Shown here: one piece after another, positions 26,193 through 41,372 of the stretch
Layout of the letters: every line of letters starts with the position of its first letter
Numbering within the stretch: position 1 is the stretch's first letter
Source of the DNA: Acidobacteriaceae bacterium
Lineage (GTDB): Bacteria; Acidobacteriota; Terriglobia; Terriglobales; Acidobacteriaceae
Direction: 5' to 3'
DNA: 41,541 nucleotides
Assembly: GCA_003165795.1 (NCBI GenBank)
Contig: PMWW01000152.1
Coordinates: 84,144-125,684, forward strand
Notes under the pieces: generated by a model
What the model was told of the DNA's origin: nothing
The model's database searches: none
Seen by the model: only the letters and a program-made list of their open reading frames with translations
Translations under genes and position numbers: made by a program

Positions 26193-28717
26193 CAGAAACC
26201 GACCAAGCCAGCGTCATGGTGGTGGATGACCAACCCGCCAATTTGAAGCTCCTGGAAGACATGCTGAAAAATCAGGGCTACGCGATACGTTCGTTTCCCA
26301 GAGGCCAGCTGGCCCTGGCGTCGGCAGCGCAGAGCCCCCCCGACCTGATCCTGCTGGATATCAACATGCCGCAGATGAATGGCATCGAAGTTTGCGAACG
26401 GCTGAAGTCCGACCGCAGATTGGCCGGGATCCCGGTCATCTTCCTCAGCGCGCTAAACGAAAGCGAGGACAAGATCAAGGCTTTTCGGTCCGGCGGCGTG
26501 GACTACGTCACCAAACCGTTCCAACTTGCCGAAGTGCTGGCGCGAGTGGAAACTCATCTGGAGTTGCGTCGCCTGCAGCGGACAATCGAACGGCACAGTG
26601 ATCACTTGGAAGCGATGGTCCGCTCCCGCACCACCGAACTGGTGGATGCGAACCGGCAATTGGAATTGCTGGCGGAAGCGTTGAAGGCCGCTCCGAGTGC
26701 CATCGGCATCACCGATGCGAGCGGATCGCTGGTCTGGACTAACCCGGCATTTTCCGCGCTGTCCGGCTACTCGGCGGAAGAAGTAATGGGCAAGAACCGG
26801 CGGCTGTTGAATTCGGGAAAGCAGGACCAGAAGTTCTACGAGCGGATGTGGACGACGATCTCGTCGGGAAAAACCTGGCAAGGGGAGATTGTCAATCGCC
26901 GCAAGGATGGCAGTGACTCTACCGAAGAGATGATCATTGCGCCGGTTTCGCTGCAAGCAAGCCGAATCACCCATTTCGTAACCATCAACCAGGACATTTC
27001 CGAGCGGAAGCGGTCTGAGGAAGAACTTCGCAAGGCGGAAGAAAAATATCGGGCCATCTTCGAAGATGCGGTGGTGGGGATTTTTCGGACCACCCCTGAC
27101 GGCCGCCTGGTGGACGTCAATCGCGCTTTCGCTCGCATGCATGGTTACGATTCTGCGGCAGAGCTATTGCCGGACGTGGCCACGATGACACGCCAAATAT
27201 TCGTCGATGCCGAGCAGATGAAGGCTTGGGCGGAGGTGCTGGATTCAGATGGCGTCATAAGTGGGGCTGAAGTGAAAATCTGCCGTAGAGACCGCACCCA
27301 CAAATGGGGGCTGCTGAACATCCGGGGGGTGCGAAATACCGATGGCGATATGGTGTTCTATGAGGGCACGATTGAGGACGTGACCGACCGCAAACTGGCG
27401 CAAGAGCAAGTCCACTTCCTGGCCTATTATGATGTCCTCACGGAGCTGCCCAACCGGGCGCTGCTGCGGGCGCGATTGGACAAGGCGCTGGCCGATGCCC
27501 GCCGGCGAACGGACAAAGTGGCGCTGCTGTTTCTCGACCTTGACCGGTTCAAGATCATTAATGATTCGCTGGGGCACTCCTTTGGCGACCTTCTGCTGCA
27601 GCAGGTAGCAGCTCGTCTGAAGAGTGTGACCCGCGAAGAAGACACCGTGGCCCGGGTGGGCGGGGACGAATTTGTGATCGTGCTGACCTGTGCCGAAAAC
27701 GCCAAAGAGGTGGCGCTTACCGCGGAACGCGTGGTGAATTCGGTCACTGGGGAGTTCGTGGTCCATGGTCACTCACTCAGCATTACCTGTAGTCTGGGTA
27801 TCAGTATGTTCCCGGAACACGGTACGGACAGCGAAGCGTTGATCAAGAATGCCGATGCGGCGATGTATTGCGCCAAAGAAAACGGATGCGACAACTATCG
27901 CTTCTTTACCGACGATATCAGTTCCCGGGTGGTGGAGCGATTGACTCTGGAGAATGGCTTGCGGCTGGCCCTCGACCGGGAAGAATTCTTCCTGGTGTAT
28001 CAACCTCAGGTAAGCATCGCCAACGAGGAAATCACCGGGGTGGAGGCACTGCTTCGCTGGCAACACCCTGAGTTGGGCTTGGTGTCGCCAGATAAGTTCA
28101 TAAGGATCACCGAGAACACCGGGCTGATTATAGGGATTGGTGAATGGGTACTCAGGACCGCCTGTTCGCAGGCCCGCAAGTGGCAAGAAGAGGGCCTGCT
28201 GGCGGTGCCGATGGCGGTAAACGTGTCGGCCGTCCAGTTTCGCCAAGAAGGCTTCCCCGCACTCATCCGCAGCGTGCTGCTGGAGACTGGTCTCCAGCCC
28301 CAGTTCCTCGAACTGGAGTTGACCGAGAGCTTACTGCTATCCAATGCAGACGTGATGTTTGCCGTTCTGCACGAACTAAAGGACATGGGTTTAAAGCTGG
28401 CGCTCGACGACTTCGGGACGGGCTATTCCAGCCTCAGCTACCTGCGGCAGTTTCCGGTGAGCAAACTCAAGATCGATCAATCGTTTATCCGGGACATTGC
28501 GGTCAATCCCGACGACGCGGCGATTACCGGGGCAATCATCAGCATGGCCAGGGACCTAAATCTCAAGGTGATTGCCGAAGGGGTTGAGAATGAGGCGCAA
28601 CTTTCCTTTTTGCGGGCCCATCAGTGTGGCGAATTTCAAGGCTACTTTTTTAGCCAACCGCTGACCGTGGAGAAGCTGGCCGACAAACTACGAACGAAAG
28701 TTGGATCGACACGGTAG
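26189..28717 (+). CDS. Receiver-PAS-PAS-GGDEF-EAL cyclic di-GMP enzyme
   Basis: An 842-residue response regulator that can in principle both make and degrade cyclic di-GMP. The N-terminal receiver has LILLDINMPQM and Lys in VTKPF. Two PAS domains cover about 155-280 and 280-410. The GGDEF domain has Gly491-Phe495 intact, with the inhibitory I-site Arg482-x-x-Asp485 exactly five residues before it. The EAL domain begins with Glu619-Ala-Leu (GVEALLRW) and keeps NVSAVQF, ELTESLL, DDFGTGYSS, KIDQSFI, AEGVE and QGYFFSQ, the expected metal and catalytic residues. ATG 26189 has AGGGGA 6 nt upstream and overlaps the stop of the CHASE kinase, the obvious phosphodonor for its receiver. It is the only visible enzymatic output of the island besides the PP2C. 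Confidence 0.94.
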   Translation: MTETDQASVMVVDDQPANLKLLEDMLKNQGYAIRSFPRGQLALASAAQSPPDLILLDINMPQMNGIEVCERLKSDRRLAGIPVIFLSALNESEDKIKAFRSGGVDYVTKPFQLAEVLARVETHLELRRLQRTIERHSDHLEAMVRSRTTELVDANRQLELLAEALKAAPSAIGITDASGSLVWTNPAFSALSGYSAEEVMGKNRRLLNSGKQDQKFYERMWTTISSGKTWQGEIVNRRKDGSDSTEEMIIAPVSLQASRITHFVTINQDISERKRSEEELRKAEEKYRAIFEDAVVGIFRTTPDGRLVDVNRAFARMHGYDSAAELLPDVATMTRQIFVDAEQMKAWAEVLDSDGVISGAEVKICRRDRTHKWGLLNIRGVRNTDGDMVFYEGTIEDVTDRKLAQEQVHFLAYYDVLTELPNRALLRARLDKALADARRRTDKVALLFLDLDRFKIINDSLGHSFGDLLLQQVAARLKSVTREEDTVARVGGDEFVIVLTCAENAKEVALTAERVVNSVTGEFVVHGHSLSITCSLGISMFPEHGTDSEALIKNADAAMYCAKENGCDNYRFFTDDISSRVVERLTLENGLRLALDREEFFLVYQPQVSIANEEITGVEALLRWQHPELGLVSPDKFIRITENTGLIIGIGEWVLRTACSQARKWQEEGLLAVPMAVNVSAVQFRQEGFPALIRSVLLETGLQPQFLELELTESLLLSNADVMFAVLHELKDMGLKLALDDFGTGYSSLSYLRQFPVSKLKIDQSFIRDIAVNPDDAAITGAIISMARDLNLKVIAEGVENEAQLSFLRAHQCGEFQGYFFSQPLTVEKLADKLRTKVGSTR

Positions 28718-28792
28718 CCTATGTCCTAATTGTCACCCGTGCGGGCCAGTGAGTCGAGAGATCTGCCGTCGCTTTTGAAGCGGCCCCGAGCC

Positions 28793-28939
28793 TTAGCAGG
28801 CTACTGAAAAAGCCGGGAAAGCAGATTCCTTGGGGCTGAAGCCCGCTTGGCATGGCAAGAATAAAGGCCTTAGGACGGCGCACTTGAAGGTGCGCCCCTT
28901 CAAGACATGTCGAATCCGACTTTTCCAGCAACCGGTTAG
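28793..28939 (+). repeat. 147-bp MITE-like element, copy B
   Basis: The ends are imperfect inverted repeats (AGCAGGCTACTGAAAA; right end TTTTCCAGCAACCGG) inside direct TTAG flanks. There are two internal hairpins (GGGCT/AGCCC at 28833-28844 and GGCGCAC/GTGCGCC near 28876-28896). It shares the AAGAATAA ... GGCG ... CGCCCCTTCAAG core with the copies at 32726-32871 (inverted) and 37002-37148. The right TTAG contains the stop codon of the mutarotase gene. Confidence 0.75.
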
Positions 28940-29847
28940 AGTTCGGTCACCCTGACCGTCGCTTTCATCATGTGCTGTCGCCCCGGCGCCAGTTCGACCG
29001 CAAAATTGCCGACATTGCTGGTTTCGATACACAGCATTTGCTTCCATTGATCTTCCCCCAAGTCAGACAAGCTGCGGGACTTCTCAACCCAGGGATTCCA
29101 CACCACGGTGGTCAGCGAATTCTCCTTGATGACCTCTATCTGACGATGTAGGACAGTATCTTGCAGGGCGACGGGATGCTGAGTATTCAGATAGACGCGG
29201 TCGGTTTCAGACTCGATCACCACGTCGCCATGCTGGGTCTTTTGACGATAGGAATCGGTTTTGTCCAGGTAAGCAACACCGTCCAAGCCAGACACGCGGG
29301 CTTTCACGGCGTCTCCTACTCTGTGGTAGGCGTGCATGGCTTCCTCGAAACGAAGCGACGTTGGGCCGGTATTGGTCACCACCAGCTCAAGCACCAGCTG
29401 GGGGCCGAACGTGGCACGGTGCAGCAAGCGAAAATCGGCAGGCCACCACTTCTTCGTGCTCTCATCGCCGGCGGTGAACATGCTCACCGTCACGGCGTTG
29501 CCAGCCGGCTCGATCGACTCCAGCTGCCACGATTTTGTGCGCACGAATCCGTGGGCGGGAGCGTGGGGACCGTCTGCCTTGTCGCCAAACCACGGGAAGC
29601 AGATAGGAACGCCTCCACGAATGGCAACGCCATCCTTCCAGAGGGAATGGGTACTCATGAACAGAACTTCCTGCTGTGCTGCCGGCTTCCATGACGTTAC
29701 ATGGGCCCCATGAAGGTACATCTCGCCGGCGGCCGCGGGAGTGGCGATCTTCACCAGCGGGAGGCCACCGTTTCCCTCAACCACCTGGGCGATTCCGGGG
29801 ATGCCAAATCTGCGGTCAAGCTCGGCAATGGTCGCGCCTGTCGCCAT
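28936..29847 (-). CDS. D-hexose-6-phosphate mutarotase (YeaD-like aldose 1-epimerase)
   Basis: A 303-residue galactose-mutarotase-fold protein of the YeaD type, which interconverts the anomers of glucose-6-phosphate and related sugars. Signature segments are YLHGAHVTSWKP, GVPICFPWFG, APAHGFVRTKSW (His99), FEEAMHAYHRVGD (His172/His175) and CIETSNVGNFAVEL with the catalytic-type Glu. The length fits the family. The ATG at 29845-29847 has an AGGAGA-like site upstream. It is divergent from transaldolase and the other pentose phosphate genes, which suits a role in hexose phosphate handling. Its TAA stop lies within the flank of a repeat element. Confidence 0.9.
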   Translation of the reverse strand: MATGATIAELDRRFGIPGIAQVVEGNGGLPLVKIATPAAAGEMYLHGAHVTSWKPAAQQEVLFMSTHSLWKDGVAIRGGVPICFPWFGDKADGPHAPAHGFVRTKSWQLESIEPAGNAVTVSMFTAGDESTKKWWPADFRLLHRATFGPQLVLELVVTNTGPTSLRFEEAMHAYHRVGDAVKARVSGLDGVAYLDKTDSYRQKTQHGDVVIESETDRVYLNTQHPVALQDTVLHRQIEVIKENSLTTVVWNPWVEKSRSLSDLGEDQWKQMLCIETSNVGNFAVELAPGRQHMMKATVRVTEL

Positions 29848-29880
29848 AGAGTCTCCTTTCCGTGCTCTAATGCGGAATTG

Positions 29881-30008
29881 TTAGGGAGGGTCTGATTAAG
29901 CCAGGTGGGAGTGCCTCAGGGGCTAAAGCCCAGCCTTTATAACGGGCATTTACGGACGGCCTGAAGGCCGTCCCCTTCGAGGGCCCGGACTTATCAGAGC
30001 TTCCTTAG
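29881..30008. repeat. 128-bp IS5-like MITE with TTAG flanks
   Basis: Inverted ends GGGAGGGTCTGATTAAG (left) and, on the other strand, GGAAGCTCTGATAAG (right) are flanked by TTAG on both sides. Internal hairpins are GGGGCT/AGCCC and a perfect GGACGGCC-TGAA-GGCCGTCC. The ends resemble IS5-group termini, and TTAG fits the YTAR target of that group. The CCCCTTCGA after hairpin two recalls the 147-bp family, but the ends differ. Confidence 0.65.
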
Positions 30009-30128
30009 TTTTGATCGCTGACTCGAATGTATTGCACGGGTCCGGGGTTGTCGAGCAAGTCGAAGCGCAGGCTGTGAGCATCTAACTAATCATTGCGATT
30101 CGGGCGATATAGTGACGCTCTAAAGGAT

Positions 30129-30222
30129 TTGTCATCGCGAGCGAAGTGAGGGATCAGTTTTCTTGCCTTCTCCGGTGAAGAGCAGATTCCTCGCACCCAG
30201 AAACGGGCGCTCGTAATGACAA
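30129..30222. repeat. 94-bp palindromic intergenic repeat
   Basis: The left end TTGTCATCGCGAGCG and the right end, read on the other strand, TTGTCATTACGAGCG match at 13 of 15 positions. This type of TGTCAT..CGAGCG repeat is widespread between genes of many bacteria. A very similar string (TTGTCATCACGAGCG) occurs inside the element at 32726-32871. Confidence 0.55.
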
Positions 30223-30315
30223 TTCTGCAAGAGATGGGATCTTTTCACAGTCCTGAGACTATAAGCCGCAAGTCTCAATAAGGTATGGATCGCTGATTGT
30301 TAACCTTGCGTGAAT

Positions 30316-30344
30316 TACACTCATACGACCCGCGTTGTATAGTG
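30316..30344 (+). promoter_or_regulatory. Candidate promoter of the transaldolase gene
   Basis: TTACAC (30316-30321) and TATAGT (30339-30344) are separated by 17 bp and fit a housekeeping sigma promoter at four and five of six positions. Transcription would begin about 125 nt before the transaldolase ATG. Confidence 0.45.
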
Positions 30345-30475
30345 TCGCAAGCGGTCTTTTCGCTTCTAAACCGTAGCCTAACCTGCGACCATCGCCAAGC
30401 CCCCTGGAATTTTGCCAGTTGAAGGGTCTAGCGGCTGGCTGATACTTTCGAAGTTATCGCTCTTGAGGTGAAGTA

Positions 30476-31561
30476 ATGAAAGCAACGCAAACTTTGCATG
30501 ACCTGGGCCAGAGTCTTTGGCTCGACAATATCACGCGCGACTTGCTGGATACGGGAACGCTAAAGCGCTACATCGACGAGCTGTCGGTGACGGGACTCAC
30601 GTCGAATCCGACGATTTTCGACCAAGCTATCAGCAAGAGTGCCTCGTACGATGCATCGATCCAGGAAAAAGCCAGCCAGGAGAAATCCTGCGAGGCCTTG
30701 TTCTTCGATCTGGCGCTAGAAGATCTTACTCGTGCCGCCGATCTATTCCGTCCGACTTACGAGCGAACCAAGGGTGTCGATGGCTGGGTGTCGTTGGAAG
30801 TTTCTCCGGCGCTGGCTTATGAGGCCGCGAAGAGTCTGTCGGTGGCCAAAGATCTGCACGCCCGCGCTGCTCGTCCCAACCTTTTTATCAAGATACCCGG
30901 CACGCAACAAGGATTGACCGCTATCGAAGAGGCCATCTTTGCCGGCGTTTCGGTCAACGTGACGCTGCTGTTCTCGCGCGAGCAATATCTGGCGGCGGCC
31001 GAGGCTTACCTGCGCGGCATCGAGCGCCGGATCGCTGCCGGTCTGAAGACCAATGTCGGCTCGGTAGCGTCGGTATTCATCAGCCGTTGGGACGTCGCCG
31101 TGACGAACAAAGTGCCGGACGAACTGCGCGACAAGTTGGGCATCGCCATCGCCCAGCGCACCTACAAGGCTTATTACGATTTGCTGGCAACGCCGCGGTG
31201 GAGGGCCATCGCCAGCGCGGGCTACAATCCGCAGCGCCTCTTGTTGGCCAGCACTGGGACCAAAGATCCCCGAGCTTCCGACATTCTCTATGTCAAGGCG
31301 CTGGCTGCTCCCAACACCGTAAACACCATGCCCGAGGGAACGCTGAAGGCATTTGCCGATCATGGTGAGGTGGGCGCTGCTATGCCGACCGACGGCGGCG
31401 ATTGCGAGCAGGTATTGGCCCAGTTCGGCAAAGCCGGCGTTGATGTGATTGCCCTGGCAGCGCAGCTTCAGGAAGAAGGCGCGAAGTCGTTCGTCAAGTC
31501 CTGGGACGACTTGATGAGGGTGATCGAGGCCAAGAGTGCGGTGCTGACTAAGGTCATCTGA
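30476..31561 (+). CDS. tal: Transaldolase
   Basis: Transfers a dihydroxyacetone unit between sedoheptulose-7-phosphate and glyceraldehyde-3-phosphate in the non-oxidative pentose phosphate pathway. The 361-residue chain is of the longer TalA/mycobacterial-type subfamily. Visible motifs are [14 protein letters not shown] near residue 40, [16 protein letters not shown] with Schiff-base Lys139, and SVNVTLLFS. The C-terminal half has [24 protein letters not shown] and the AFADHGE stretch. GAGGTG at 30465-30470 supports the start. It is followed after about 105 bp by 6-phosphogluconate dehydrogenase on the same strand. Unlike some relatives it is not fused to glucose-6-phosphate isomerase. Confidence 0.95.
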
Positions 31562-31665
31562 GTTTTTTCTTCGGCCCCATGTTGCTTGCTCGCGAAAGCG
31601 CCATTCCGGCATCAACGTGTGCTGGCACGGGGCCCGGCAATTTCTGTCAAAAGAGGAGTGATGGA

Positions 31666-32685
31666 ATGCAACTTGGAATGGTGGGACTGGGACGGATGGG
31701 CGCCAACATGGTGCGGCGGCTCATGAACGCAGGGCACGAGTGCGTGGTCTTCGACATGTTTCCCAAGGCGGTGGAGGAGTTAGTCAAAGAGAAAGCGGTT
31801 GGATCTTCCTCCTTGCAGGATTTCGCCAAGAAGCTTAACCAGCCGCGCGCCATCTGGCTGATGGTTCCCGCTGCTGCCGTGGATGAAACCATCGCGGGCA
31901 TCGTGCCGCATCTGGAGCCCGGTGACATCCTGATTGACGGCGGCAATTCGTATTACATCGACGACATCCGTCGCGCCAAGGACCTGGCAACCAAGCAGAT
32001 TCACTACGTCGATGTCGGCACCAGCGGCGGCGTCTGGGGACTGGAGCGCGGATATTGCATGATGATCGGGGGTCCGCCAGCGGCGGTGCAGCATCTCGAT
32101 CCCATCTTCAAAACGCTGGCGCCGGGCAAGGGCAACATCGACCGCACGCCGGGCCGCGAGAAGATGGGCGGCACGGCCGAAGAAGGTTATCTGCATTGCG
32201 GACCGAACGGCGGTGGACATTTCGTCAAGATGGTGCACAACGGCATCGAGTACGGCATCATGGCAGCTTATGCCGAAGGGCTGAACATTCTGAACTCCGC
32301 CAATGTCGGTAAACAGAAACACGAGATCGATGCCGAGACCACCCCGCTGCGCGATCCCGAACATTATCAGTATGACTTCAATCTGCCCGACGTGACCGAG
32401 GTTTGGCGGCGCGGCAGCGTCATCGCTTCCTGGCTGCTGGATTTGACGGCATCTGCGTTGGCTACTGATCCTCAGCTGTCGAAATTTGCCGGCCGCGTCT
32501 CCGACTCGGGCGAAGGGCGCTGGACCATCAAGGCCGGCATTGACGAAGCGGTGCCGACACCGGTGCTCACGACCGCGCTCTATGAGCGCTTCAGCTCGCG
32601 AGGATTGGCAGACTTCGCGGACAAGCTTTTGTCGGCGATGCGCTATGAGTTCGGTGGACATCTGGAGAAGGCGGCAGGGAAATAG
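31666..32685 (+). CDS. gnd: 6-phosphogluconate dehydrogenase, short (GndA/YqeC-like) form
   Basis: Oxidatively decarboxylates 6-phosphogluconate to ribulose-5-phosphate. At 339 residues it belongs to the short form, lacking the long C-terminal repeat of the E. coli enzyme. The Rossmann motif is GLGRMGANM, and beta-2 ends in VVFDMFP with Asp30, which favours NAD over NADP. Substrate and catalytic segments are [32 protein letters not shown]-type sequence and [15 protein letters not shown] (catalytic Lys). GAGGAG at 31653-31658 lies 7 nt before the ATG at 31666; the frame is open further upstream but without family character. A repeat element separates it from 6-phosphogluconolactonase. Confidence 0.94.
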
Positions 32686-32725
32686 CCGTATGTTTTTTGG
32701 CGGCTGGAAGGAGGAGTACAGCTTT

Positions 32726-32871
32726 CTAGGCCGCGAAAAGACTCGAGTTTTGAAGTCTCTTGAAGGGGCAGACCTTTAGCTGCGCCGTAACAAGCCCTTT
32801 ATTCTTGTCATCACGAGCGGGCTTTCAAGCCCGCGAGGGACCTGCTGTTCACACTTCTGGCGAGCTACTAG
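32726..32871 (-). repeat. 146-bp MITE-like element, copy D (inverted orientation)
   Basis: Bounded by CTAG on both sides and homologous, on the minus strand, to the elements at 28793-28939 and 37002-37148: AAGAATAAAGGGCTTGTTAC then a GGCGCAG hairpin and GCCCCTTCAAGA. A perfect GCGGGCTT/AAGCCCGC hairpin lies at 32817-32834. The terminal repeats are more worn than in the other copies. It sits between gnd and pgl, ending 24 bp before the pgl start. Confidence 0.7.
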
Positions 32872-32895
32872 CTTACCGGGAAAACAGGAGACACA

Positions 32896-33582
32896 ATGCA
32901 GATTGAAATCCTTGCCGATGCCGATGCAGTCGCCAAGAAGGCGGCTACAACCATCGCCGCCGACGCCCGGGCCGCAGTGGCTGCGCGCGGACGCTTCGTC
33001 ATGGCAGTCAGCGGAGGTCATACCCCGTGGGTCATGCTTCGTGAGCTGGCCAACGAGGAAGTTCCTTGGGCCAACGTGCACGTCTTCCAAGTCGATGAAC
33101 GCATCGCGCCGGCCGGAGATCCCGATCGCAACCTCACTCACCTGCGCGCCAGCCTGTTGGAACACGTTCCGCTTCCGCCGGAACAGATTTACGCGATGCC
33201 GGTGGAAGCGCCCGACCTGGAGGCGGCGGCGAAGCAATATGCGCACACCCTCGAACAAATTGCCGGCAAGCCGCCGGTGCTTGACCTGGCGCACTTGGGG
33301 CTCGGTCCCGACGGCCATACGGCCTCGCTCGTGCCCAACGATCCCGTCCTCAAGGTCACCGACGCCGATGTCGGGTTGACCGGTATTTACATGGGACGGC
33401 GCCGGATGACGCTGACCTATCCCGTGCTCAACCGCTCGCGGCGAATTCTGTGGTTGGTGGCCGGTGCGGAGAAGGCTCCTATATTTCCACGACTCAAAGC
33501 TGCCGATCCTACGATCCCGGCCGGACGCATCAGTCAGACGCAGGCGCTGCTGCTCGCCGATAAGGCGGCGGCGGGGCAGTAG
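32896..33582 (+). CDS. pgl: 6-phosphogluconolactonase
   Basis: Hydrolyses 6-phosphogluconolactone to 6-phosphogluconate, the step before Gnd. The 228-residue protein is of the DevB/NagB-like type: MAVSGGHTPWVMLREL near residue 37, VFQVDERIAPAGDPDRN, LGLGPDGHTASLVPND and the closing MTLTYPVLNRSRR segment. AGGAG at 32886-32890 sits 5 nt before the ATG. The gene follows gnd across a repeat element that may weaken read-through. Glucose-6-phosphate dehydrogenase, the usual first enzyme, is not present in the window. Confidence 0.94.
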   Translation: MQIEILADADAVAKKAATTIAADARAAVAARGRFVMAVSGGHTPWVMLRELANEEVPWANVHVFQVDERIAPAGDPDRNLTHLRASLLEHVPLPPEQIYAMPVEAPDLEAAAKQYAHTLEQIAGKPPVLDLAHLGLGPDGHTASLVPNDPVLKVTDADVGLTGIYMGRRRMTLTYPVLNRSRRILWLVAGAEKAPIFPRLKAADPTIPAGRISQTQALLLADKAAAGQ

Positions 33583-33871
33583 CAGTCCGGCCAGATGGCG
33601 GGCCGGGGAAACCAAAAGGCGAATATTCCGGGGCGAGTATTCCGGATGGCCAGAGCTGCTGAGAAGAACTCGCGTTTGGAACCGCGTTGGCAGTTGCAAT
33701 TGATCCGCATGTAAATCGCCGATGAATTTTTCTCGAACCTCGGTATCAAATGGCTTCTTGGATGGCTCTCCTGCTTCCGTTCGTCGGCGATTGGTGATAG
33801 CTTCATTCTCATCCAGACCGTCGTGAACCCGTCGTTTCTGCCGATTACCATCTTGTCAGGAGACCACTGTC

Positions 33872-35278
33872 TTGCCCACGACCGCAGCCAGCAACAATAA
33901 CATCTATGACCTGATTGTCGTGGGCAGCGGCCCGGCCGGACAGAAGGCGGCAATCTGCGCTGCCAAGATGCGCAAGAAAGTCGCTGTGGTCGAACGCAAG
34001 CGTACCATCGGCGGGGTTTGCGTCCACACCGGAACTATCCCCAGCAAGACTTTTCGCGAAGCCATTCTCTACCTCAGCGGACTGCGGCAGCGCACGTTCT
34101 ACGGACGCGGCTACGCGTTGAAGGAAAATATCTCGATGCAGGACCTGGTCTTCCGCGCCGACTCGGTGATGGCGCGCGAGATTGAGGTGATCAAGGCGCA
34201 ACTGCGGCGCAACCGGGTCACGGTCTATGAAGGCAATGCGCGCTTCCTCGACCCGCACAGCATGGAAGTGGCCAGTGATGAAGGCTACACGCTACTGCGC
34301 GGAACTAACTTTGTGATTGCCTGCGGCACGCGGCCGGCGCACAGCGCCGATATTCCCATCGATGGCAAGCGCATCTTCGACTCCGACCAGGTCCACGAGC
34401 TGGAAGAGCTGCCGCGAGAGTTGATCGTAGTGGGCGCGGGGATTATTGGACTGGAATATGCCTCGATGTTCGCCGCGCTGGGAGTGAAGGTCACGTTGCT
34501 CGATCAGCGGTCTATACTGCTTGATTTTGTCGATCACGAGATTGTTGAGAGCCTATGTTTTCAGCTGCGGCAACTGGGCACGGTGTTTCGCCTCGGCGAA
34601 AAAGTTGTGCAGGTGGGAATTGACGATGATCGCGACCGCGTCTTTGCCAAGCTGGAGAGCGGGAAAACGGTGCATGGCGCCGCTTTGCTCTACGCGGTCG
34701 GACGCCAGGCGAACAGCGACCAGCTTAATTTGGAATCGATTGGGCTGGTGCCTGACAGTCGCGGCAAGATCATCGTTGACGAAAATTTCAAGACATCGAT
34801 TCCGCACATCTATGCCGCCGGCGACGTGATCGGCTTTCCCGCGCTAGCCAGCACCTCGATGGAACAGGGAAGACTTGCCAGTTGCCACATCTTTGGAGTG
34901 CCCGGCACCATTCCGCCAAACCTGATTCCGTATGGTGTATACACCATTCCGGAGATTTCCATGGTGGGCGCGACCGAGGAGCAGCTGACCCGCGATAAGG
35001 TGCCTTACGAAAGCGGCATCTCGCGTTACGCTGAGTTGGCGAAAGGTCAGATGCTGGGCGACGACCAGGGGTTCCTGAAACTTCTGTTCGATCCCGGCAG
35101 CCTGAAGCTGCTGGGAGTGCACATCATCGGGGAGCGTGCCGCCGAGATCGTCCACATCGGGCAAGCCGTGTTGACCATGGGCGGCACCATTGAGTACTTC
35201 CGCGACACCGTGTTCAACTATCCCACATTGGCGGAGGCCTACAAAGTAGCAGCTTTAGACGGCCTGAACAAACTCTGA
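33872..35278 (+). CDS. sthA: Soluble pyridine nucleotide transhydrogenase
   Basis: An FAD flavoprotein that exchanges hydride between NADPH and NAD. The 468-residue chain has the FAD motif VVGSGPAGQKAA (near residue 17) and GGVCVHTGTIPSKTFREA, in which the second cysteine of the dithiol seen in lipoamide dehydrogenase is replaced by Thr; this is diagnostic for SthA. The NAD(P) motif is VVGAGIIGLEYASMF, and the second FAD segment is HIYAAGDVIG. The interface domain starts near 345 (YTIPEISMVG). The start is a TTG at 33872 with AGGAG (33858-33862) 9 nt upstream, and no in-frame ATG precedes the FAD motif. It follows the pentose phosphate genes by 289 bp and may balance the NADPH/NADH they yield. 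Confidence 0.93.
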   Translation: MPTTAASNNNIYDLIVVGSGPAGQKAAICAAKMRKKVAVVERKRTIGGVCVHTGTIPSKTFREAILYLSGLRQRTFYGRGYALKENISMQDLVFRADSVMAREIEVIKAQLRRNRVTVYEGNARFLDPHSMEVASDEGYTLLRGTNFVIACGTRPAHSADIPIDGKRIFDSDQVHELEELPRELIVVGAGIIGLEYASMFAALGVKVTLLDQRSILLDFVDHEIVESLCFQLRQLGTVFRLGEKVVQVGIDDDRDRVFAKLESGKTVHGAALLYAVGRQANSDQLNLESIGLVPDSRGKIIVDENFKTSIPHIYAAGDVIGFPALASTSMEQGRLASCHIFGVPGTIPPNLIPYGVYTIPEISMVGATEEQLTRDKVPYESGISRYAELAKGQMLGDDQGFLKLLFDPGSLKLLGVHIIGERAAEIVHIGQAVLTMGGTIEYFRDTVFNYPTLAEAYKVAALDGLNKL

Positions 35279-35321
35279 TGATAGTCAGACAATGTAGTGC
35301 ATTGCCCCAGGATGCTTTCTC

Positions 35322-35777
35322 CTAGGCCACCTTCCTGTGCTTCCGCATGACGCGGACCCGCTCCAGCAGGCCCACAATTGCCTGTGCCTGGTTGCGAATA
35401 ATTCCCAGAATGTCGTCCGGCAGTTGATGGTTACGAATGCACTTGTCATATTGGTCCCGGGCGTAGCGGTCGCCGGTTTCCATGGACGACAGAATAGCGT
35501 CGTCGCCCCCGCCCAGGTTGGCCTTAAGATCGGTCCACCCGCGACGGATTGCGGCCATTGTGCTGCCGGAGCGGTCCAGGTCGGCTTTGCCCAAGCGAAC
35601 CGCCGTACTCTCCAGATCCCCGGCAAACTTGGCCCGCTCCAGGCTGACTTCGCTAAGAAACTTCTTCAGTTGTGGGTCCTTCGCGTGCTCGGCCGCGTCA
35701 CGATATCCGTTTTGACCGTCTCGACAAACTTCGATCAGCTTCTCCAGAGTGTCCACAATGTGCTTTTGATCTGCCAT
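35322..35777 (-). CDS. PA2169-family (DUF2383) four-helix-bundle protein
   Basis: A 151-residue all-helical, ferritin-like protein. The opening DTLEKLIEVCRDGQNGYRDAA and the later GDRYARDQYDKCI segment are typical of DUF2383, members of which are often stress-induced and of unknown activity. The Glu/Asp/His positions could hold metal but no complete di-iron ExxH set is evident. AGGAGG 7 nt upstream gives a very strong ribosome binding site. It is convergent with sthA and divergent from the radical SAM gene. Confidence 0.85.
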   Translation of the reverse strand: MADQKHIVDTLEKLIEVCRDGQNGYRDAAEHAKDPQLKKFLSEVSLERAKFAGDLESTAVRLGKADLDRSGSTMAAIRRGWTDLKANLGGGDDAILSSMETGDRYARDQYDKCIRNHQLPDDILGIIRNQAQAIVGLLERVRVMRKHRKVA

Positions 35778-35938
35778 GACTGCGCCTCCTAATTCTTTCT
35801 TGTTCCAGGTCTTAGTAGGATGGCGGGGAGCTGCGCCAGGTTGGCCTGGCCGGACCGCCGGAACTGACTTGACTCGGCGGCGCCTGAGCGGTAGGATTTG
35901 CTAGGCGAAGAAAGAGCGAATCTCGGCCGGCCTTTCCC

Positions 35939-36949
35939 ATGCATCCATCGCTGCTCCAGATCGAGGATGAAGACGCCACGCCGGAATTCATTGGCATCGC
36001 CAAGCTCGCGGCGCAGGGGGAATCGATCCGGCAGGGTCATCTGGTTGAGTACTTCAAGCTACCGTCGCGGTCGCTGCTCAACCGCTGCACCTCGGCGCGA
36101 ATGCCTTTCGCGTGGACGATCAATCCCTATCGCGGTTGCGAGTTTGCCTGCAAATATTGCTACGCGCGCTATACCCACGAGTTTATGGAGATGCGCGACG
36201 GGGTGGATTTCGAACGCAAGATCTACGTCAAGCAGCAGGCCGCCTGGCTGCTGCGGCAGGACTTGCGAAAAGTGAAACGCGGGGAGGAGATTGCCATCGG
36301 TACCGCGACCGATCCTTACCAACCTGCCGAGAAGCGCTTCGAGGTCACCCGCGGAATCCTGGAGGAAGTGGCGCAACACCACGGCCTGAAGATTGGGATT
36401 GTCACCAAGTCCGACCTGATTCAGCGCGACATCGAACTTTTGCGGCGCGTGGCCGAGCATAATTCTTTATTCGTGAACCTCACCGTCACCACGCTCAATA
36501 CCAAGCTGGCGCGAACTCTGGAGCCACGGGCACCGCGTCCCGACCTGCGGCTGGAGGCAGTGCGCCAATTGTGCGCCGCGGGGCTGAACGCTGGAGTGAT
36601 TTGTGCACCGGTGCTGCCGGGAATCACAGACTCGCTCGCCGCACTGGACGCCCTGGTGCGCGCCACGAAAGAAGTGGGCGGGAAGTACATCTACGCCAAT
36701 CCACTGTTCCTGAAGCCATGTTCGGCGAGCGTGTTTCTGCCATTTCTGGAGAAAGAGTTTCCACACCTCGTGGAGGACTATCGCAAGAGGTATGCTGATC
36801 GGGCGTTTGTGAGCAAGGCTTATGGCAAGCGCATTTCAGAGTTGATGGCAGGCTTGCGCAGGAAGTACGGCATCAGCCGCGAGTTCAGCTCGCGCAGCCA
36901 GAGTGCCCACCCGCCATTGGCCGAGGAGCAGTTAGGCCTGTTTGCGTGA
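35939..36949 (+). CDS. Radical SAM protein, Rv2578c/PA0069 (spore photoproduct lyase-like) family
   Basis: A 336-residue radical SAM enzyme. The cluster motif is Cys67-x3-Cys71-x2-Cys74 in NPYRGCEFACKYCYAR, preceded by PFAWTI. Later segments are TATDPYQPAEKRFEVTR, VTKSDLIQRDIELL and PVLPGITDS, as in the PA0069/Rv2578c group related to spore photoproduct lyase. The substrate is unknown. The C-terminus is EEQLGLFA, matching the QLxLF beta-clamp-binding consensus, which would fit a role at replication or repair sites. It stands alone after a divergent DUF2383 gene. The ATG at 35939 lacks a clear ribosome binding site. Confidence 0.88.
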   Translation: MHPSLLQIEDEDATPEFIGIAKLAAQGESIRQGHLVEYFKLPSRSLLNRCTSARMPFAWTINPYRGCEFACKYCYARYTHEFMEMRDGVDFERKIYVKQQAAWLLRQDLRKVKRGEEIAIGTATDPYQPAEKRFEVTRGILEEVAQHHGLKIGIVTKSDLIQRDIELLRRVAEHNSLFVNLTVTTLNTKLARTLEPRAPRPDLRLEAVRQLCAAGLNAGVICAPVLPGITDSLAALDALVRATKEVGGKYIYANPLFLKPCSASVFLPFLEKEFPHLVEDYRKRYADRAFVSKAYGKRISELMAGLRRKYGISREFSSRSQSAHPPLAEEQLGLFA

Positions 36950-37001
36950 GCAGCGGCATCGTGCGAAGCGAAGGTCCCGGTCAGGTGCACCAGTCTCGGC
37001 T

Positions 37002-37148
37002 CTAGCAGGTTGCTGAAAACTCGGGAAAAGCAAACCCCTCACCGACTAGAGTCGGTTCGAAGAATAAGGGACTTGTTACGGCGTAGCTAGACTAAAGCTA
37101 CGCCCCTTCAAAATCACCTCTGGCCAAGTTGTTTCAGCAAACTGCTAG
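37002..37148 (+). repeat. 147-bp MITE-like element, copy A (best preserved)
   Basis: The ends CTAGCAGGTTGCTGAAA (37002-37018) and TTTCAGCAAACTGCTAG (37132-37148) are inverted repeats matching at 16 of 17 positions, bounded by CTAG. Two hairpins lie inside: ACCGACT/AGTCGGT (37041-37056) and GCGTAGCT/AGCTACGC (37081-37103). The final CTA is the stop codon of the TonB receptor gene on the minus strand. No coding capacity; likely moved in trans. Confidence 0.82.
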
Positions 37149-40099
37149 AACGAGAACAGCATTTGCAGGTCGATACGCCGACTGGCCGAGCCGGAAGAAA
37201 ATGGGGCGCCGGCCAATGCGTTTGACGTTCCGAACAGCGGTGAGCTGAGATTGCCGATGGGAGGCGCGTAGTTCACGTTGTTCAGCAAGTTTCGCGCGCT
37301 GACGCTGAACGTCAAGTTGTATTTGCGATTGGTTTCTCCGCTGAAGATAAACGGGCTGCCACCGGGCCCTCCAAGTCCGCGGCCTCCGAGGCCTCCGCCA
37401 CCACCGCGAGGGCCACCGCCGCCGGATCCGCCCGACCTACCGTGGCCATCGACTTTCGGTCCCAGACCAATTGTCTTGCTGAGCCGCAGGTTCAAGCTAA
37501 ACAAGGCCTGGCCGGTGCCATAGTTAATCGGCGTGATGGCCTGGCCGGGCTGCGGCACGGTATTGAAGGTGCCGTAGGGAGTGACCTTGACGGCCCCAGC
37601 CGGACCTGTACTGGCCAGTGCGGGACGGTCATTGAAGATCGAGTCGCCATTCAGGTCCTGACCGACGATGATGTCAAATGGCGAACCCGAGTCGGCGATG
37701 ATGAATGGGCTGAGGCGGAGTGCGTAGGGCAGAGAAATTGTGCCGCCGACAAAGAGGCGATTGCGAACGTCGAAGGCCGCCCGCCCGTAGTCCTGCATGG
37801 GGTCATAGGAGTTCATCACGAATTGCGGGGAACTGGTACCTCCGCCGAAAGCGCCGCCAAATCCGCCGCCGCCGCCTCCAGACGAAATCGAGACCGCGCC
37901 GCCCGATCCGAGATCGCTGTTGGCGAAATTGAGCGAGTAGAAACCAAACAGCGACAGCTTATTGCCGACGCTAACCCGAAAATTCGCGATCACTTGGTTC
38001 TGCTCGAAAACTCCGCCGGAGTTGTACTGATAGATGTTGGTGTTCCCACCAAAGGGACGAATATCGCTGGGCGGGTAGGTGCCAGGCAAGGGCGCATTGG
38101 CATTGCGCAAGAAGAGCTGGTGCTCTCCTCGCGAGTTCAGATAGGTGACCGAGACAGTGGCATTCTTGGTGATTTGCCGCTCCACGCTGAAGGCCGCTTC
38201 CATGGTGTAGGGCACGCGCAGGTTCGACTGGACCTGATAGACCGTAGGCGAGGTAGTGGACAGTTGTGACAGCTGTGCCGGTGTCGGAATCAGCGGATAG
38301 AAGTTAGGGTTGGCCACGACATACTGTTGTTGGGTGGTGCCGTTGTAGCGCTCGGCTTGCAACAGGTAGTCATAGGAGAAGCGGTCGTAGAAGATGCCAT
38401 ATCCTCCGCGCAGCACGGTCTTCGGCTGGGTCTTATTGTGTCCCAGACCCCAGGCCAGACTCACGCGCGGCGCCCAATCGCCCTGGTAAGGAATGCCGGT
38501 TTGCGTCTCATAGCGCAGCCCGGCGCTAAGCGTGATGTTGGGCCGGAGCCTCCATTCGTCCTCGGCGTACAAGCCGACATCGACCATGGAAACGTCGGAG
38601 AGCGGCTGTCCGGCGACCAGAACAAACTGGCTGGCGCCGCCGCCCAGCGCCCGAATCTGCGCCGGGGTCAGACCCTCTTGCAATCCCGTTTCCGTGATTT
38701 GATAAGCGTTGATCGAGGAAAAATTATAGGACCCGTTGAAGCCCGAGTCCTGAGTGCTGGAAAACAGCGTACCGCGCAGCCTGCCGCCGAACTTGATGAA
38801 GTGCTTGCCATGGGCGATCGAAGTGTAATTCTGCAATTCGTAGTGGTCTTGATTGCTGACCACGGTACCGGACGAACTTCCACCGCCGGTAAACGCGCTC
38901 TGCACGATCAGGGTGGGATCGACGCTCAAGGGAACCGAGGTGTCGCTGTCGCGAATGTACTGGAAGCGCGTCTCATTTACTATCGTCGGACTGATAGTCT
39001 GGGTGTCGCTGATCTGTACCGTCTGCTCGGTGCTGTGGGAGTTATAGCCTGTCGTGGCTAGAGAGAATTGGCCGATGCCTTCGTTGTTTTGATCGTTGCG
39101 CACATACTGATAGCGCACGGTCAGTGTGTTCTTAGGGGTGAGTTGGAAATCGGCCCGCGGGCTGATATTAAGCCGCTTCGCTGGGCTGGGCACGGCCGCG
39201 GTGTAAGGGACGATGGTGTTGCCCGGACCGAGTACCTGGGCGACGATGACGCTTACGTTGTCGATGTCGCGCTGCTGGATGGTGAAGAAGAACGAAGCCT
39301 TCTTGTCGATCGGCCCGCTGATATTTCCGTTGAAGATTTCCGAGTAATAGCCCGGCGTCGACGTAATGAAGGGATTGAGCGAGTTGAACGCCGAAGAATT
39401 TCCATTCACCATGAGCTGGCCGTGGAGCTGATCGGTCCCTGGCTTGGTGAAGACCTCGATGCGTCCGTAACCGAGCTTGTCGTACTCGGCGGAGAATGGG
39501 TTCTGGTTAATACGGATTTCGCGGATCGCCGATTTCGGAGGAAGTTGTCCGGCGGTAAATCCGTCAACATAGATTTGGCCGCCGTTCGGTCCGGCGGAAG
39601 GCCCGGCCAGAGCTTGCAGCTCTGAACTCAACTCATCGGGATCGTCGGAGAGCGCATCGAGATCTTTGCCCTTGAGCACCAAAGTTCCAGCGCTGCTTTC
39701 GGGACTCACATTGACGGTTGGGGACTCTTCCTGCACCTCGACGTTTTGTTTTTCGACCTCGATCTCCAGACCGATGTCGAGCTGTTGCGGCTGCCCGGGG
39801 ACAATTTTCACGTCCGCTTCCTGATCGACTGCGAAGCCCGGAGCCGCGGCCGTGACGTTGTACGATCCAGGAGCAAGTCCCTTGAGTTCATAAACTCCTT
39901 GATGATTGGTTAGGGTGCTGATGGGCTTTCCATCAGCTCCAGTGGCAGTAATCGTTGCTCCGGGGATGACGGCGCCGGAGGGATCGGTAATCCGGCCACG
40001 CAGGGTTCCCGATGTTTGCGCGGAGGCCGCAACGGCGAAAATCGAAAACAAGAAAAAGGTAATGGTGCACAAGCGCATTTGAAGTGACTGGACTTTCAT
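37145..40099 (-). CDS. Oar-like TonB-dependent outer-membrane receptor
   Basis: A 984-residue outer-membrane protein. A signal peptide spans about residues 1-28 (ending AVAASAQ). A carboxypeptidase-regulatory-like Ig domain (about 30-100) contains LRGRITDPSGAVIPGATI and GVYELKGLAPGSYNV. The plug (about 125-215) includes IYVDGFTAGQLPPKSAIREI. The rest is a 22-strand-type barrel ending in LQMLFSF with the terminal Phe needed for assembly. Two Gly-rich stretches interrupt the barrel (SSGGGGGGFGGAFGGG, and a longer one near 905-935). Acidobacteria carry many such receptors; the substrate, often a polysaccharide or peptide, cannot be read from sequence. The start at 40099 (MKVQSLQMRL) is preferred because it precedes the signal peptide and avoids overlap with the upstream gene. 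Confidence 0.9.
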   Translation of the reverse strand: MKVQSLQMRLCTITFFLFSIFAVAASAQTSGTLRGRITDPSGAVIPGATITATGADGKPISTLTNHQGVYELKGLAPGSYNVTAAAPGFAVDQEADVKIVPGQPQQLDIGLEIEVEKQNVEVQEESPTVNVSPESSAGTLVLKGKDLDALSDDPDELSSELQALAGPSAGPNGGQIYVDGFTAGQLPPKSAIREIRINQNPFSAEYDKLGYGRIEVFTKPGTDQLHGQLMVNGNSSAFNSLNPFITSTPGYYSEIFNGNISGPIDKKASFFFTIQQRDIDNVSVIVAQVLGPGNTIVPYTAAVPSPAKRLNISPRADFQLTPKNTLTVRYQYVRNDQNNEGIGQFSLATTGYNSHSTEQTVQISDTQTISPTIVNETRFQYIRDSDTSVPLSVDPTLIVQSAFTGGGSSSGTVVSNQDHYELQNYTSIAHGKHFIKFGGRLRGTLFSSTQDSGFNGSYNFSSINAYQITETGLQEGLTPAQIRALGGGASQFVLVAGQPLSDVSMVDVGLYAEDEWRLRPNITLSAGLRYETQTGIPYQGDWAPRVSLAWGLGHNKTQPKTVLRGGYGIFYDRFSYDYLLQAERYNGTTQQQYVVANPNFYPLIPTPAQLSQLSTTSPTVYQVQSNLRVPYTMEAAFSVERQITKNATVSVTYLNSRGEHQLFLRNANAPLPGTYPPSDIRPFGGNTNIYQYNSGGVFEQNQVIANFRVSVGNKLSLFGFYSLNFANSDLGSGGAVSISSGGGGGGFGGAFGGGTSSPQFVMNSYDPMQDYGRAAFDVRNRLFVGGTISLPYALRLSPFIIADSGSPFDIIVGQDLNGDSIFNDRPALASTGPAGAVKVTPYGTFNTVPQPGQAITPINYGTGQALFSLNLRLSKTIGLGPKVDGHGRSGGSGGGGPRGGGGGLGGRGLGGPGGSPFIFSGETNRKYNLTFSVSARNLLNNVNYAPPIGNLSSPLFGTSNALAGAPFSSGSASRRIDLQMLFSF

Positions 40100-40133
40100 G
40101 AAGCCGAAAAGTTTTGCCGCTGCATGTATTCCG

Positions 40134-41372
40134 CTAGGGAGTGTCTCCCGTTCCAGCATTTGCTCCGGTAGACAGATTCCACGGTGACAAAATTGTGCTG
40201 GCCCGGGCGGGAGAAGCGGCCGCCAGAATCGGCTCGACCCCGCTGAGCAGGATGATCACCGTCGAAGGTGAATCGGTTGAGCCTTCGGTAGCGACGATCA
40301 TCAATGCGTCGCCCTTTTGCAATTCGCCGAGGCCAGCAGCGGGCATGCGACTGAGCATTTGCTGAAAATCGGGCGGACCACCCTGGCGAGAACCTCCCGG
40401 ACTTGCCCCGCCGTCGGGAGACGTCCCGCCGCCTTGGGCATGCGTGGGAGGGCCGCCAGCCGCAGCAGCGCCGGCACCAGCAGGAGAAGCGCCGCCTTTC
40501 AAGCGCAGGGCAATGCGCTGCGCGAACATGGCAGGCAGCTTGTGCATCTGCGAGTCGGCGGTGATTTTCAGCGTTACCGGCCGCTTGTTTGCCAGGTCCG
40601 TCACCGTGACCGTACTATTCGCGGCGTCGGTGGAGACGACCACACCGGCAATGCTGCGGAAGCTTCCCGAGACAATTTCTGCGGCCGCCATTGCCTTGCC
40701 ATCATCGCTTTTGGTACCGCGTACGCGAAGCTGGTCGCCAGGCTTGATCTGGTCCAGCGTGCCGGGCTTGGCGTCGTCGAACTTCACCGAGTCAGGAGCG
40801 TAGCGGCGAATGAGCGTGTCCTGCGAAACATGGATGGCGAGCGTGTTGGGAGCGCCTAACGTGCCGGTGGAAATCGTAATCGTTCCCGAGCCGGCATCGA
40901 CTGCCTTCACCACGCCGCCGGTGCCGTGCTTCTGCCACTGTTCGCGGTCATGTTCCTGCTTCTCGGCGACGTCGGACTTCTTCATTACGACTGCGGACGT
41001 GGCCGAGACGGACTTGCCATCATCGGAGGGCGTTCCTCCGGCAAGCAGGCGATCGCCCACCTGAACATCGCTCAACTGGATCGCCAGTGCGCTCTTTAGA
41101 TCGGTCTGCCCCGGCGCCATACGCACCAGGCGAGTAGACGGTCCAATGAGCACGTTGATCTCAGAACCAGAGTCGGTGGTGAGTGTGATCGTGTTGGCAT
41201 TCACCGACTTAATTGTGCCCACAGCGCGAACTTTTTTCGGCGCGTTTACCGGCTGCGAGGTGCCGCTCTGCTGAACGGCAGAAGTTTGGGGAGCAAGAAG
41301 TAAGCTTCCGGCGACGAGAACAAGGATCGCTAAGACTGGCTTCACTCTTCGTTGTGGAATCATGGCTCGCAT
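40134..41372 (-). CDS. Secreted DUF5666-type repeat protein
   Basis: An exported protein of about 412 residues. A signal peptide or anchor covers residues about 10-35 (VLAILVLVAGSLLLA). Three or four beta-barrel-like repeats follow, each of the form G-x-I/V-x-x-V-x-x-x-x-I-T-L ... G-D-x-L-x-x-x-G-x-x-x-D-D-G-K: VRAVGTIKSVNANTITLT/SDDGKSVSA, GGVVKAVDAGSGTITIS/SDDGKAMAA and IAGVVVSTDAANSTVTVT. This is the DUF5666 (OB-like) pattern. A Gly/Ala/Pro/Ser-rich linker lies near 305-345. It is 34 bp upstream of the TonB receptor on the same strand, so the two are probably co-transcribed. Start choice among several ATGs (41363, 41372, 41429) is uncertain. The function is unknown. Confidence 0.8.
   Translation of the reverse strand: MRAMIPQRRVKPVLAILVLVAGSLLLAPQTSAVQQSGTSQPVNAPKKVRAVGTIKSVNANTITLTTDSGSEINVLIGPSTRLVRMAPGQTDLKSALAIQLSDVQVGDRLLAGGTPSDDGKSVSATSAVVMKKSDVAEKQEHDREQWQKHGTGGVVKAVDAGSGTITISTGTLGAPNTLAIHVSQDTLIRRYAPDSVKFDDAKPGTLDQIKPGDQLRVRGTKSDDGKAMAAAEIVSGSFRSIAGVVVSTDAANSTVTVTDLANKRPVTLKITADSQMHKLPAMFAQRIALRLKGGASPAGAGAAAAGGPPTHAQGGGTSPDGGASPGGSRQGGPPDFQQMLSRMPAAGLGELQKGDALMIVATEGSTDSPSTVIILLSGVEPILAAASPARASTILSPWNLSTGANAGTGDTP

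Follow-up and report, generated by a model that had tools for sequence, protein, structure and literature searches.

A stretch of 41,541 nucleotides from the draft genome of an Acidobacteriaceae bacterium (GenBank assembly GCA_003165795.1, contig PMWW01000152.1, positions 84,144 to 125,684), hereafter the window, carries three homologous repeats of 146-147 bp, designated E1, E2 and E3. Here we show that they belong to a high-copy family of miniature inverted-repeat transposable elements (MITEs), of which at least 106 copies or fragments lie in the own-genome neighbourhoods studied. Very likely, an IS5-family transposase acting in trans moves these MITEs, which duplicate 4 bp on insertion, use two classes of target (YTAR and the tetraloop of hairpins) and nest within their own kind. 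Genomes, stretches or loci, and contigs are labelled G, L and C, respectively. The features of the window, including stop codons of adjacent open reading frames (ORFs), are as follows; hairpins were placed by reading of the sequence, folding and covariation.

28793-28939, plus strand: copy E1, including both TTAG (28793-28796 and 28936-28939); element proper 28797-28935
28833-28844, no strand: hairpin 1 of E1, GGGC-TGAA-GCCC
28877-28896, no strand: hairpin 2 of E1, GGCGCAC...GTGCGCC
28936-28938, minus strand: TAA stop codon, within the right-hand TTAG of E1, of the adjacent reverse ORF 28936-29847
32726-32871, minus strand: copy E2, inverted and decayed, with CTAG borders at 32726-32729 and 32868-32871
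37002-37148, plus strand: copy E3, including both CTAG (37002-37005 and 37145-37148); element proper 37006-37144
37041-37056, no strand: hairpin 1 of E3, ACCGAC-TAGA-GTCGGT
37080-37104, no strand: hairpin 2 of E3, GGCGTAGCT...AGCTACGCC
37145-37147, minus strand: TAG stop codon, within the right-hand CTAG of E3, of the adjacent reverse ORF 37145-40159

The initial annotation had described three homologous elements at these positions, each with the same 4-mer on both sides, two hairpins and a common core, and direct reading and alignment bear this out. E1, E2 and E3 can be aligned end to end around the core AAGAATAA...GGCG...CGCCCCTTCAA with a mean column identity of 75%, and they also align with 24 more copies from the own genome. 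From these 27 copies RNAalifold returned two stems with 18 pairs, nine of which show at least one double change that preserves the pair. The terminal inverted repeats (CAGGYTGCTGAAAAA, approximately 15 bp), likewise ascribed to all three, are clear in E1 and E3 (elements proper of 139 bp each, with three and two mismatches in the two 15-bp ends, respectively) and strongly decayed in E2, which failed the end-pair filter though its CTAG borders are present. As CTAG is its own reverse complement, only copies of the TTAG type, such as E1, prove a direct repeat. E2 sits between the ORFs 31579-32685 and 32896-33582, and among the listed ORFs of at least 100 aa in the window, none lies within an element. 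The hairpin 1 loop of E1 (28837-28840, TGAA) is a 4-mer of the type found at target sites, and in some other copies the counterpart of E3 hairpin 1 is split at its loop by a second copy. As single-stranded DNA, E3 alone folds better than its shuffled versions (z -3.58, as compared to -0.88 for E1 and -0.29 for E2).

Repetitive extragenic palindromic (REP) sequences of the REP/RAYT type are GTAG-headed palindromes with a tyrosine (Y1) transposase. Palindromes of this type, or structural RNAs, spread by another route without being mobile elements would show two conserved, covarying hairpins and a high copy number as seen here, and REP-type repeats with tyrosine transposases are reported from acidobacteria (PMC3733652). 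This explanation is nevertheless most improbable: it is contradicted by the direct TTAG/TTAG and TTCA/TTCA duplications, and 4-bp duplications, inverted ends common to insertion sequences (ISs) with DDE transposases, and pairs of filled and empty sites all speak against it, as does a search of Rfam over positions 27500-38500, which gave one chance-level match (17.2 bits, gathering cut-off 45), outside the elements.

At least 46 stretches of the own genome match E1 and at least 50 match E3, both numbers being lower bounds since 40 candidates were scored for each. If at most three mismatches are allowed, the end pattern TAGCAGGYTGCTGAAAAA is found 71 + 68 times, as compared to 3 + 3 times for the reversed control. 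Merging the surroundings of matches and ends gave 94 stretches with 281 kb of the 4.95 Mb genome. These were searched with a family profile built from 19 duplication-bounded copies, one of which (L045) was wrongly oriented. The profile matched 129 times at E 1e-3, and 106 non-overlapping matches remained at E below 1e-6: 48 full-length copies, 17 with the left end only, 30 with the right end only, 8 with the interior only and 3 others. Some copies are nested, truncated or placed at contig ends. The family thus has the traits of MITEs, being short, with inverted ends and a 4-bp duplication, without transposase gene, present in many copies and absent from the orthologous places of relatives. Five contigs, C55, C80, C193, C143 and C32 (L006, L015, L060, L075 and L198), share closely similar bases (TTGTAACACAGTARTA) within their first 60, just before YTAR, and in four of the five these lead into an end of the family; the shared starts are probably a repeat broken by the assembler. 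We found no paper describing the family in the MITE, REP and IS5 literature, searched by titles and starts of abstracts and covering few subscription papers. The available portion of a MITE review mentions neither Acidobacteria nor hairpins (PMC10969869), and in PMC8841776 the term MITE occurs only within the references.

Concerning the orthologous places, the profile at E 1e-3 found no copy in 20 same-genus stretches around those of E1, E2 and E3. E3 is absent in seven of seven same-genus genomes holding the end of ORF 37145-40159, and E2 is missing from the interval between its neighbour genes in three of three genomes with both genes on one stretch. A single YTAG had been expected at empty sites. 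At the right border of E3, the only comparable side, a single CTAG (G213, G212) or CTAA (G176, G218, G217) is read in five of the seven relatives, while G216 and G214 have TCAG. At the place of E2, there are 8-10 bp in G216 and G215, without a readable single CTAG, and 1.5 kb of other DNA in G213; the left flank of E1 is not comparable with relatives.

The right-hand YTAG of both E1 and E3 contains the stop codon of the adjacent reverse ORF, and since this YTAG is duplicated, the ORF is kept intact. Of 35 elements with flanks matching at three or more of four bases, six touch a stop codon. Among 22 YTAR-type, non-hairpin elements hand-picked from these 35, the six compare with 55 of 668 YTAR sites taken as controls (Fisher p 0.009), genes being simple longest-ORF calls. 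A genome-wide preference for stop-codon sites is no more than suggested by these numbers.

The initial annotation had proposed YTAG as the target. Among 54 own-genome end pairs, the 4-bp flanks are identical in 25 and match at three bases in 10 and at fewer in 19. The 25 perfect duplications are CTAG (7), TTAG (6), TTTA (3), TGAA, CTAA, TTCA and TAAA (2 each) and TTAA (1). Our own-genome target set comprises the 24 elements that combine a perfect duplication with 16 flanking bases to the left and to the right. YTAG does not cover the whole of this set: 15 elements have YTAR, and the other nine (TTCA, TGAA, TTTA or TAAA) form a second class in which the 4-mer is mostly the exact loop of a palindrome. 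Of eight possible flank pairs, YTAR sites form 0-5 (mean 2.1) and the others 4-8 (mean 6.4; Mann-Whitney p 5e-5). The stems vary (GGCACGGC, GGCACGAC, ACCGAC, AGGGGT and others). As a pattern, and going beyond the first reading, insertions lie either at YTAR outside hairpins or in hairpin tetraloops.

Could this still be an ordinary YTAR-targeting IS5-type MITE, its hairpin sites being survivors in intergenic repeats that tolerate insertions? The 15 YTAR duplications and the YTAR target reported for IS5 (PMC10359306) agree with it. We consider it unlikely, as the loop insertions are exactly centred, involve 4-mers other than YTAR and occur in several different stems. Moreover, at least six of the eight flanking pairs are formed at 7 of the 24 insertion sites, but at 1,694 of 278,823 positions (0.6%) of the same neighbourhoods. 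Centring exact to the base is not explained by tolerance of insertions.

The same pattern is found outside the own genome. Same-genus stretches (27 from a genus end-pattern search and 40 hand-chosen from its list, with preference for GAGG ends in G176 and G213) contain nine elements with perfect duplications, one at YTAR and eight elsewhere, five of the latter with 7-8 pairs. In the family set all 12 elements have YTAG, though they come from a search requiring TAG, and full ISs were too long for counting. Pooling the own, genus and family sets, 12 of 45 sites have at least six pairs, as compared to a mean of 3.06 and a maximum of 8 in 1000 shuffles of the right flanks. For the 17 non-YTAR elements of own genome and genus, pairing is 4.94 of 6 at offset 0, where the loop is the duplicated 4-mer, and 1.1-2.5 at offsets 1-4. 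A scan of GTDB contigs for hairpin arm, loop and end yielded 39 stretches, 38 of them in records titled Acidobacteria, Acidobacteriaceae, Acidobacteriales, Terracidiphilus or Occallatibacter and one in a record titled Deltaproteobacteria. In this hairpin-selected set, 17 elements have perfect duplications, 14 of these with at least six pairs and one at YTAR. Sister species and further Acidobacteriaceae also have loop insertions, among them the left end of an IS5-type IS from the same genus. The Deltaproteobacteria-titled match (L356, NC_groundwater_231) may be due to transfer or contamination.

The hairpins hosting loop insertions belong to the family itself and to a second MITE-like repeat, B, of about 168 bp with CTAG or CTAA borders, inverted ends around GTGTCCCGCAA and two hairpins. 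In the own genome, repeat B was seen in L036 (1048-1215), L021, L199, L006 and L041, and several B copies adjoin copies of the window family at a shared CTAG. B copies without insertion measure 160, 160 and 156 bp between anchors. Two filled ones measure 302 bp (160 + 138 + 4), which is 142 bp more than empty; three further copies were not measurable in this way. The filled copies have the loops TGAA (in C145) and TAAA (in C33), and their inserts are a divergent subtype of the window family. Within the family, outer copies in C157, C60, C63 and C77 break off at the hairpin 1 loop, where the end of another copy follows immediately; these four are among 39 copies for which the match begins at an internal position of the profile. 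In L026 (end like GAAAATTGCAGTTGCGGTTGCGACACAGTCT) and L018 (divergent), another repeat also starts at the hairpin loop of window-family copies, so that elements with more than one kind of end may insert into loops.

Concerning the source, the elements had been taken as non-autonomous and moved by an IS5-group transposase at YTAG, with a full IS of the same ends to be looked for. Such ISs do exist. If no more than one mismatch is allowed, the end pattern is present in 22 of 100 same-family genomes including the own one, controls giving 0, and four same-family genomes (G129, G197, G205, G184) hold five complete ISs, with ends 1.3-1.85 kb apart around one transposase gene. Their borders are CTAG/CTAG (L137, L138, L140), TTAG/CTAG (L139) and ATAG/ATAG (L118). 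All four proteins scanned, from L137-L140, exceed the cut-off of 140 for the NCBIfam model NF033581 of IS5-family transposases (281, 281, 268 and 225 bits), that of L140 being shortened to 324 aa, and two of two transposases scanned match Pfam DUF772 and DDE_Tnp_1. At a TAAA/TGAA hairpin site, L351 is an internally deleted IS of 650 bp in which the same ends enclose what is left of the transposase, residues 1-53 and 307-368. A transposase of NF033581 type is the likely mover of the window family.

Other MITEs of same-family genomes have the same ends but different interiors, with direct TTAG/TTAG in L126 and L166. Unrelated interiors of 120, 148-149 and 153-189 bp were seen in L171, L172 and L165-L169 from other genomes of the family. 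Unrelated interiors between identical ends indicate that the ends have captured several of them. The 148-nt consensus of the window family matched five of 119 genomes of the phylum including the own one, and among the other four only G073 (seven matches) substantially. In the genus, the end pattern occurs in nine of nine genomes and transposase matches in three of nine, the own genome not being among these. G176 has an IS left end with the first 39 transposase residues before the contig ends, directly after ...GGCACGGCTTCA and ...AGCACGGCTTCA.

The own genome seems to be without the source transposase. Loss or non-assembly may account for this. Young ISs are often lost from draft assemblies, and one may have collapsed out of this draft, as the contig ends in G176 look like that. 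Candidates for an autonomous own-genome copy were rejected: of ten ORFs beside unpaired ends, six match non-transposase Pfam families and four match none, and of three DDE_Tnp_1 matches the sole one scanned for ends (L106) has none. IS701 and IS1182 were considered for their 4-bp target and became moot with the transposase result. YTAR does not appear in the available portion of an IS4-family paper (PMC2266710).

The two target classes could also reflect two transposases with similar ends, such as that of the GAGG-ended IS in G176 acting at loops and that of a CAGG-ended IS acting at YTAG. Five of eight non-YTAR elements of the genus have G at both ends, though GAGG was preferred in sampling, whereas 10 of 12 YTAG elements of the family set have C at both; a decayed IS139-like copy at CTAG (G214) and the loop-type IS (G176) also lie in different same-genus genomes. 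In the own genome, however, C is found at both ends in 5 of 9 non-YTAR elements, much like 11 of 15 YTAR elements; the same is true of 12 of 16 in the hairpin-selected set, and the interiors of both target classes align as one family. We regard two transposases as possible but rather doubtful.

For a single transposase, we propose the following mechanism. Inverted ends of about 15 bp (CAGGYTGCTGAAAAA) flank the non-coding interior with its two hairpins, and copies would be moved in trans by an IS5-family DDE transposase of NF033581 type; ends and gene are observed, while movement is our interpretation. Each insertion duplicates 4 bp. As a pattern, one class of target is an intergenic YTAR, in most cases YTAG, which at times overlaps the stop codon of a gene. 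The other is the 4-nt loop (TTCA, TGAA, TTTA or TAAA) at the axis of a palindrome of varying stem. Both would fit one half-satisfied core, Y-T-N-R or Y-N-A-R. This is probably explained by a preference of the transposase for DNA that is sharply bent or extruded as a cruciform, a hairpin loop offsetting a poorer 4-mer. Since the elements carry such hairpins themselves, they bring new landing sites, hence the nesting in their own family and in repeat B. More broadly, and tentatively, since we hold it to be slightly less than evenly probable, an Acidobacteriaceae lineage of IS5-type DDE transposases may read target shape, inserting into tetraloops of any stem, with its MITEs multiplying their own landing sites.

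Several observations weigh against the proposed mechanism. A protein search of the own draft genome found no transposase of the source type, which makes movement in trans here a matter of interpretation. G209 has three NF033581 genes above cut-off without such ends (up to three mismatches) in the 1.6-1.9 kb around each, so that the ends do not follow from the type of transposase alone. For the loop-type IS in G176 the assembly is limited to the left end and 39 residues, and the ATAG of L118 fits neither core. Among the end pairs, 19 of 54 have fewer than three matching flank bases and are old, recombined or wrong pairs. The genus sites L337 and L268 lack a clear hairpin, and L343 is one base off. 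The E3 empty site is one-sided, its left flank not being comparable, and two of seven relatives read TCAG, not YTAR. The end-pattern searches of the own genome and of the 100 family genomes contained TAG and favoured YTAG sites; the GTDB scan demanded a hairpin arm, on one side only, and its 39 stretches therefore give no frequencies.

Insertion sequences of the IS5 family and IS5 group, and their MITEs, share with the window family the NF033581-type DDE transposase, here in the same-ended ISs, and a 4-bp duplication, often YTAR; the window family adds the hairpin-loop class (TTCA, TGAA, TTTA, TAAA) and a non-coding interior of two hairpins. REP association is known in the IS3, IS110, IS4, IS256 and IS5 families, and REP-targeting ISs include ISPsy8, ISRm22, ISPpu9, IS1397, ISKpn1 and IS621 (Tobes and Pareja 2006, PMC1525189). 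Exact REP insertion is described for ISPsy8 (IS3), ISRm22 (IS4), ISRm19 (IS110), ISPa11, ISPpu9 and ISPpu10, while ISNm1106 of the IS5 family lies near REPs, not inside (PMC1525189). As in ISPsy8 and ISRm22, the symmetry axis of palindromic repeats is hit (PMC1525189), but the window family uses several stems, and its targets are hairpins of other MITE-like repeats and of its own family. The transposase of IS1111 is of another type. In Coxiella, two copies of IS1111 lie in QMITE2, likewise a mobile element inside the palindrome of a MITE (PMC10969869); in the window family, it is MITEs that nest in MITE loops.

A formerly unnamed repeat is hereby identified as a MITE family with a likely source. 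Its positions over stop codons suggest a safe-harbour logic, in which insertion at a stop-bearing YTAR restores the stop. With its insertions placed to the base, the family is natural material on which to ask if target recognition by a DDE transposase depends on shape (hairpin or cruciform) rather than on sequence, and it shows a route by which intergenic repeats of acidobacteria grow by nesting.

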